From an uncultured Planctomycetia bacterium (GTDB taxonomy: Bacteria; Planctomycetota; Phycisphaerae; Phycisphaerales; SM1A02), in contig CALFOZ010000080.1 in NCBI GenBank assembly GCA_937919205.1, positions 1 to 39,220 on the forward strand: 39,220 nt of DNA. Direction: 5' to 3'. A program made the position numbers and the translations under genes. The notes under the pieces were generated by a model, which saw only the letters and a list, made by a program, of their open reading frames with translations, ran no database searches and was not told where the DNA came from. Positions within the stretch are counted from its first letter, which is position 1; each line of letters opens with the position of its first letter. This document shows, piece by piece, positions 20,689-21,537 of this stretch.

Positions 20689-20701
20689 CGCTTTTAAAGC
20701 G
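20689..20701 (+). promoter_or_regulatory. CGCTTT-T-AAAGCG inverted repeat followed by a T-rich run, possible attenuator before infC
   Basis: The inverted repeat ends 38 bases before the proposed infC start and is followed by TTGTGTTTTCTTATTG. The arrangement resembles a weak terminator or attenuator, or alternatively an infC promoter with TATTGT as -10 (20713-20718). Confidence 0.3.
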
Positions 20702-20726
20702 TTGTGTTTTCTTATTGTCTCCACAT

Positions 20727-20733
20727 AAAGGAT
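20727..20733 (+). promoter_or_regulatory. Shine-Dalgarno AAAGGAT that points to an ATC start of infC
   Basis: AAAGGAT ends six bases before ATC at 20740. No comparable site precedes ATG 20770 (CCACGCCGTCCGCCC). The ten codons between them encode ISAFPPRRPP. Confidence 0.6.
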
Positions 20734-20739
20734 TCTTCC

Positions 20740-21537
20740 ATCTCAGCATTTCCTCCACGCCGTCCGCCCATGTCACGCCCTGATTCAGGTTCCAGTTTTG
20801 GTCCCCGCATCAATGATCGCATTCGCATTACCCCTGTTCGTTTGATCGACGAGACGGGAACAATGCTTGGTGTTGTTGAAACAGAAGAAGCGCGCCGACT
20901 TGCCATGGTGGCTGGTCTTGACCTTGTGGAGATCGCGCCCGATGTGCGGCCGCCCGTGTGCAAGATCATGGACTTTGGAAAATATAAATACGAGCAGGCC
21001 AAGAAAGACAAACAAGGTCGCAAGACCAAGACCTTTGAAATGAAGGAAGTTCGCTTGGGCCGCAGTATGAAAGTGGATCCGCACGATGTTGAGATTCGCG
21101 TGCAACAAGCGCGGCGATTTTTGCTTGAGGGTCACAAAGTGCAACTGGTGGCCAGTTACAAGGGCCGCGAAATGGCGCACAAGGAAATTGGCGCCGTGAA
21201 ATTAAACGACGCCATCGCAAAGTTGGTTGATCTGGCGCGCTTGGATAGTCCGCCGCGCTTCAACGGCAAGCGACTCTCCGCCATGTTGTCGCCAGATCGC
21301 GCGCGCATTGACGCGTATAAGCGCAAGCATCCAACGCCAAAGCCTGCGCCAACCAAGGCGGAAAAAGCCGCGGCTGTAAAGCCAGAGGGCGACGCCGTTG
21401 ACAATGGCGAATCAGCGACTACGGCCACGGGTGAAACCGCTGTGAAGAAGCCAAAGAAAGCGGCCAAGCCAAAGAAAGTTGTTGCTACCACGGATGCGCC
21501 CGTTGCAACTCCAACTTCAACTAAGGCCAATTCCTAA
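20740..21537 (+). CDS. infC: Translation initiation factor IF-3 with basic C-terminal extension, probable AUC start
   Basis: IF3 binds the 30S subunit and checks start codons. The N domain opens GPRINDRIRITPVRLIDETGTMLGVV. VDLVEIAPDVRPPVCKIMDFGKYKYEQAKK is the signature, and the C domain has GREMAHKEIG. The canonical part ends near PPRFNGKRLSAMLSP. About 70 residues rich in Ala, Lys and Pro follow (KHPTPKPAPTKAEKAA...KKPKKAAKPKK). The track start 20704 lacks support. ATG 20770 has no Shine-Dalgarno, whereas ATC at 20740, in frame, follows AAAGGAT with seven bases between. I propose AUC, giving 265 residues, because infC often uses rare AUU/AUC starts for autoregulation. rpmI and rplT do not follow; a terminator does. 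Confidence 0.9.
   Translation: MSAFPPRRPPMSRPDSGSSFGPRINDRIRITPVRLIDETGTMLGVVETEEARRLAMVAGLDLVEIAPDVRPPVCKIMDFGKYKYEQAKKDKQGRKTKTFEMKEVRLGRSMKVDPHDVEIRVQQARRFLLEGHKVQLVASYKGREMAHKEIGAVKLNDAIAKLVDLARLDSPPRFNGKRLSAMLSPDRARIDAYKRKHPTPKPAPTKAEKAAAVKPEGDAVDNGESATTATGETAVKKPKKAAKPKKVVATTDAPVATPTSTKANS

Follow-up and report, generated by a model that had tools for sequence, protein, structure and literature searches.

The infC gene of a Phycisphaerales-type planctomycete very probably starts at an AUC codon

The window, that is, the whole 39,220-nt stretch of DNA analysed here, carries on its forward strand the gene for translation initiation factor IF3, infC (20740..21537), which would encode 265 aa if read from the AUC start proposed below, with an IF3 core at about residues 22-187 followed by a C-terminal tail. 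The identity of this open reading frame (ORF) is indicated by Pfam matches to IF3_N (1.3e-29) and IF3_C (5.3e-22) and by a match to the NCBIfam infC equivalog TIGR00168 (3.9e-49; 166.7 bits against a cut-off of 60), which places the product in the IF3 family; PDB IF3 chains also match it, and infC is present as one copy in its own genome. The gene lies behind nrdR and thrS, and a convergent ORF on the opposite strand is found on its 3' side. With thrS directly upstream, the locus resembles that of E. coli, where thrS occupies the same position. Unlike in E. coli, infC is not part of an infC-rpmI-rplT operon, as rpmI and rplT do not lie directly 3' of it; they stand together (G000:C66:10948 and C66:11185, respectively) on a contig separate from that of infC (L172 1495-2106). 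The tail of the protein (window 21298-21537) extends about 78 residues past the core, is rich in Lys, Ala, Pro and Thr, and differs in length between relatives.

The sequence at window positions 20727-20772 is AAAGGAT TCTTCC ATC TCA GCA TTT CCT CCA CGC CGT CCG CCC ATG. On the forward strand, it contains a putative Shine-Dalgarno sequence (SD), AAAGGA (20727..20732), which is invariant in the eight closest members of the genus while its flanks vary, the predicted AUC initiation codon (20740..20742), and the first in-frame ATG (20770..20772), which is probably an internal Met codon and not the start. The last base of AAAGGA, at 20732, leaves a spacer of 7 nt to the ATC, and the 30 bases (10 codons) from ATC 20740 to ATG 20770 are in the same frame and free of stops. 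No SD precedes this ATG, the bases in front of it being CGCCGTCCGCCC. The earlier note, made from the DNA alone, had proposed that infC starts at AUC 20740, ten codons before the ATG, having seen AAAGGAT seven bases from the in-frame ATC and no ribosome-binding site at ATG 20770. Both observations are confirmed by the sequence, the N terminus predicted from AUC (M-SAFPPRRPPMSRPDSG...) agrees with the one given there, and the proposed start is borne out by the conserved ATC/ATT/ATA (ATH) or CTG codons, the SD and the substitution pattern described below. An anti-SD, CACCTCCTTT, is carried on another contig of the same genome, in which GGATCACCTCCTTT is located at G000:C124:38-51. The sole other in-frame ATG, GTG or TTG upstream in the infC ORF is a GTG (20704..20706, forward strand), which is the pick of an ORF caller restricted to NTG starts (277 aa); it is preceded at best by a 4-base AAAG without a GG core, and relatives have TTG or other codons at this position. 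An in-frame codon of the AUU/AUC/AUA class is found at a distance typical of an SD, and no NTG codon makes a better start. A structured operator in this region was considered and rejected, the RNA of 20690-20800 folding no better than its shuffles (z = +0.98). In addition, no Rfam leader RNA was matched near infC, and no sigma-70-like promoter was matched in the thrS-infC gap.

The start site was compared among relatives, infC being recovered in 97 of 101 genomes that belong to the same genus, family or order as the window. Upstream regions were taken from the infC-bearing genomes and a few extra contigs and anchored on the conserved ..RINDRIRI.. of the protein; after duplicates and contig-end cases had been dropped, the final sample comprised 94 genomes including the window, all from its order or near it, with 13 members of its genus besides the window. 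At the site homologous to 20740, 68 genomes have ATC (L162 being assigned by hand), 16 have ATT (L040, whose SD is 12 nt away, was likewise assigned by hand), seven have ATA and two have CTG, and in one the codon is out of frame, so that 93 of the 94 retain one of these four codons in frame; ATG, GTG or TTG occurs at the homologous site in none of the 94. Within the genus of the window, eight members have ATC and five have ATT. Relatives without ATC or ATT at this position had been named in the earlier note as evidence that would count against AUC, and the proposal survived this comparison, with an ATH codon at the site in 91 of the 94 genomes and the two CTG cases besides. An SD of at least 4 bases lies 4-11 nt before the start codon in nearly all genomes, most commonly at 7-8 nt. 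An in-frame ATT, ATC, ATA or CTG with an SD was observed in 92 of 94 genomes, against a mean of 13 and a maximum of 20 out of 94 in base-shuffled upstream regions, which demonstrates that the arrangement is not due to chance. When the same procedure of choosing the start with the best SD was applied to rplT in 30 relatives as a control, ATG was obtained in 26 and ATT, ATC or ATA in none, implying that the procedure has no bias towards ATH codons. When the codons were placed on a maximum-likelihood IF3 tree, at least 16 switches were counted among ATC, ATT, ATA and CTG, indicating that a non-NTG start has been retained rather than one particular codon. The position and frame of the start, its SD and the selective retention of a non-NTG codon are shown by these comparisons.

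The pattern of substitutions among the eight closest genus members points to the ATC as the place where coding constraint begins. In the nine codons (27 sites) upstream of the SD, variable sites are spread evenly over the three codon positions (6/6/5), the SD and its spacer together vary at a single one of their 12 bases, and the corresponding counts for the nine codons that separate the ATC from the ATG are 0/1/5; this third-position bias immediately after the ATC indicates a coding signature that starts there and not at the ATG. If GTG 20704 were instead the start, with the ATC merely an internal isoleucine codon, the stretch from GTG to the SD should also be coding. The frame is indeed open back to this GTG, 37 codons separating the core from the preceding stop, but the codon rhythm is absent upstream of 20727, the GTG is neither conserved nor provided with a GG-core SD, and in 19 members of the order a stop precedes the ATH by five codons at most. 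A conserved isoleucine would also leave the SD at 7-8 nt and the two CTG cases unexplained, and initiation at the GTG is considered extremely improbable.

Initiation at ATG 20770, with the ATC and the ten codons as an untranslated leader, is likewise very unlikely. The codon is canonical and has been kept in 12 of the 13 other genus members whose sequence covers it, but it has no SD, its counterpart is GTG in L008, and most of the family beyond the genus, like most of the order, lacks this ATG and retains the ATH codon; moreover, the stretch from ATC to ATG evolves in the manner of a coding sequence, all of its variable sites but one being third positions. The region from the upstream stop (or over 45 codons) to the IF3 core is devoid of any ATG, GTG or TTG in 39 genomes, and 13 of these also have an in-frame stop at most five codons before the ATH, which leaves the ATH (CTG in L031) as the only possible start in these 13. 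The genus member that departs from this picture, L012 (the same as L034, genome G010), has an apparent 7-nt deletion at about 1420-1520, just after its ATT start. The ATT of this 77%-complete draft genome is not in the reading frame of the IF3 core, and a start is possible only at the downstream ATG, which would be the sole usable one, a point in favour of the ATG; the frame shift may be a draft error or a natural move to the downstream ATG.

The infC gene of this planctomycete thus very probably starts at AUC, as far as can be judged from its sequence and that of its relatives. According to the proposed explanation, infC would be translated from AUC 20740 with AAAGGA seven bases upstream as a guide, giving fMet-SAFPPRRPPMSRP..., and IF3 would destabilise those 30S complexes whose initiator tRNA is placed opposite a codon other than AUG, GUG or UUG. 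Because of the AUC, plentiful IF3 would then most likely reduce infC translation and scarce IF3 would increase it, which amounts to translational autocontrol. The use of AUC in vivo is inferred from the comparison of genomes and the feedback loop from other bacteria (E. coli, Streptomyces), and we hold with high confidence that infC is initiated at AUC 20740 under SD guidance, most likely with IF3 autocontrol as in these two organisms. Alternatively, the AUC may be used and simply set a constant low expression without IF3 feedback. This is rather unlikely, although feedback in Planctomycetota is a prediction and the C-domain positions corresponding to R112, R129 and R147 of E. coli IF3 hold Q, S and D in this protein and mostly residues other than Arg in the rest of the order, so that the strength of IF3 discrimination should not be assumed. 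GTG, TTG or a weaker SD could equally fix a low expression level, yet only IF3-rejected codons occur at the site throughout at least 16 switches in the order sample; nearly all IF3 cores retain P63, Y75 and R133 (E. coli numbering), and weak codon-anticodon pairs were reported to be excluded by IF3 (Katoh and Suga, PMC10158994). Position 99 of IF3 appears to be Ser here, the alignment at that position being uncertain. Reporter tests of AUC versus AUG in a planctomycete become straightforward with the start located in this way.

An AUC-started infC is of a known kind, and the mechanism is not new. The dsg/infC gene of Myxococcus xanthus also combines an AUC start with a C-terminal extension. 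Autoregulated infC genes start at ATT in E. coli and at ATC in Streptomyces (PMC5472188), the former case going back to Butler et al. 1987 and Sacerdot et al. 1996 on AUU and IF3 autocontrol, as these are cited in PMC5472188, and AUU was given for infC of both E. coli and B. subtilis (PMC1805508). The present gene shares with E. coli infC a near-cognate AUH start and SD-led initiation and differs from it in having AUC instead of AUU, a ten-residue stretch before the first Met and a long C-terminal tail; with Streptomyces it shares the identical codon in a different phylum. In S. aureus, a start of the same class was seen experimentally, as AUA with an extended SD mapped by ribosome profiling (Ribo-Ret, PMC13009471). 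The infC start was found to be misannotated in most Streptomyces species (PMC5472188), and gene callers limited to NTG codons would similarly give a wrong IF3 N terminus throughout the Phycisphaerales-type group. With dense comparative support, the classic signature of IF3 autocontrol is extended to these planctomycetes.

Starts of the ATH class were also observed for infC in Rhodobacteraceae (ATA), Micrococcaceae and relatives (ATT/ATC), Rokubacteria (ATC) and many Planctomycetota families, and Gemmatimonadales and some planctomycete families apparently use GTG, TTG or ATG. Phylum-wide automatic choice of the start with the best SD is noisy (10 of 97 unresolved, some picks competing with an aligned ATH) and serves for qualitative use only; among the other Planctomycetota, the apparent starts include GTG (L180, L181, L187, L199, L209), TTG (L246, L255, L263) and ATG (L196). 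As a point against the proposed explanation, the trait is not indispensable in the phylum, as some of its families look GTG-, TTG- or ATG-started. It is possible, although somewhat doubtful, that the order has kept the rule of no AUG, GUG or UUG start for infC over dozens of genera and at least 16 switches, with CUG in two genomes, and that related planctomycete families have dropped it, perhaps because another device replaced IF3 autocontrol. If this is true, Planctomycetota would represent a natural experiment on when IF3 feedback is needed. In addition, the ATA-started N-terminal stretch of Rhodobacteraceae (L048-L107), IARRPHNAPP..GPRVNDRI, resembles IARRRFFRP..GPRVNERI of Phycisphaerales-type genomes.
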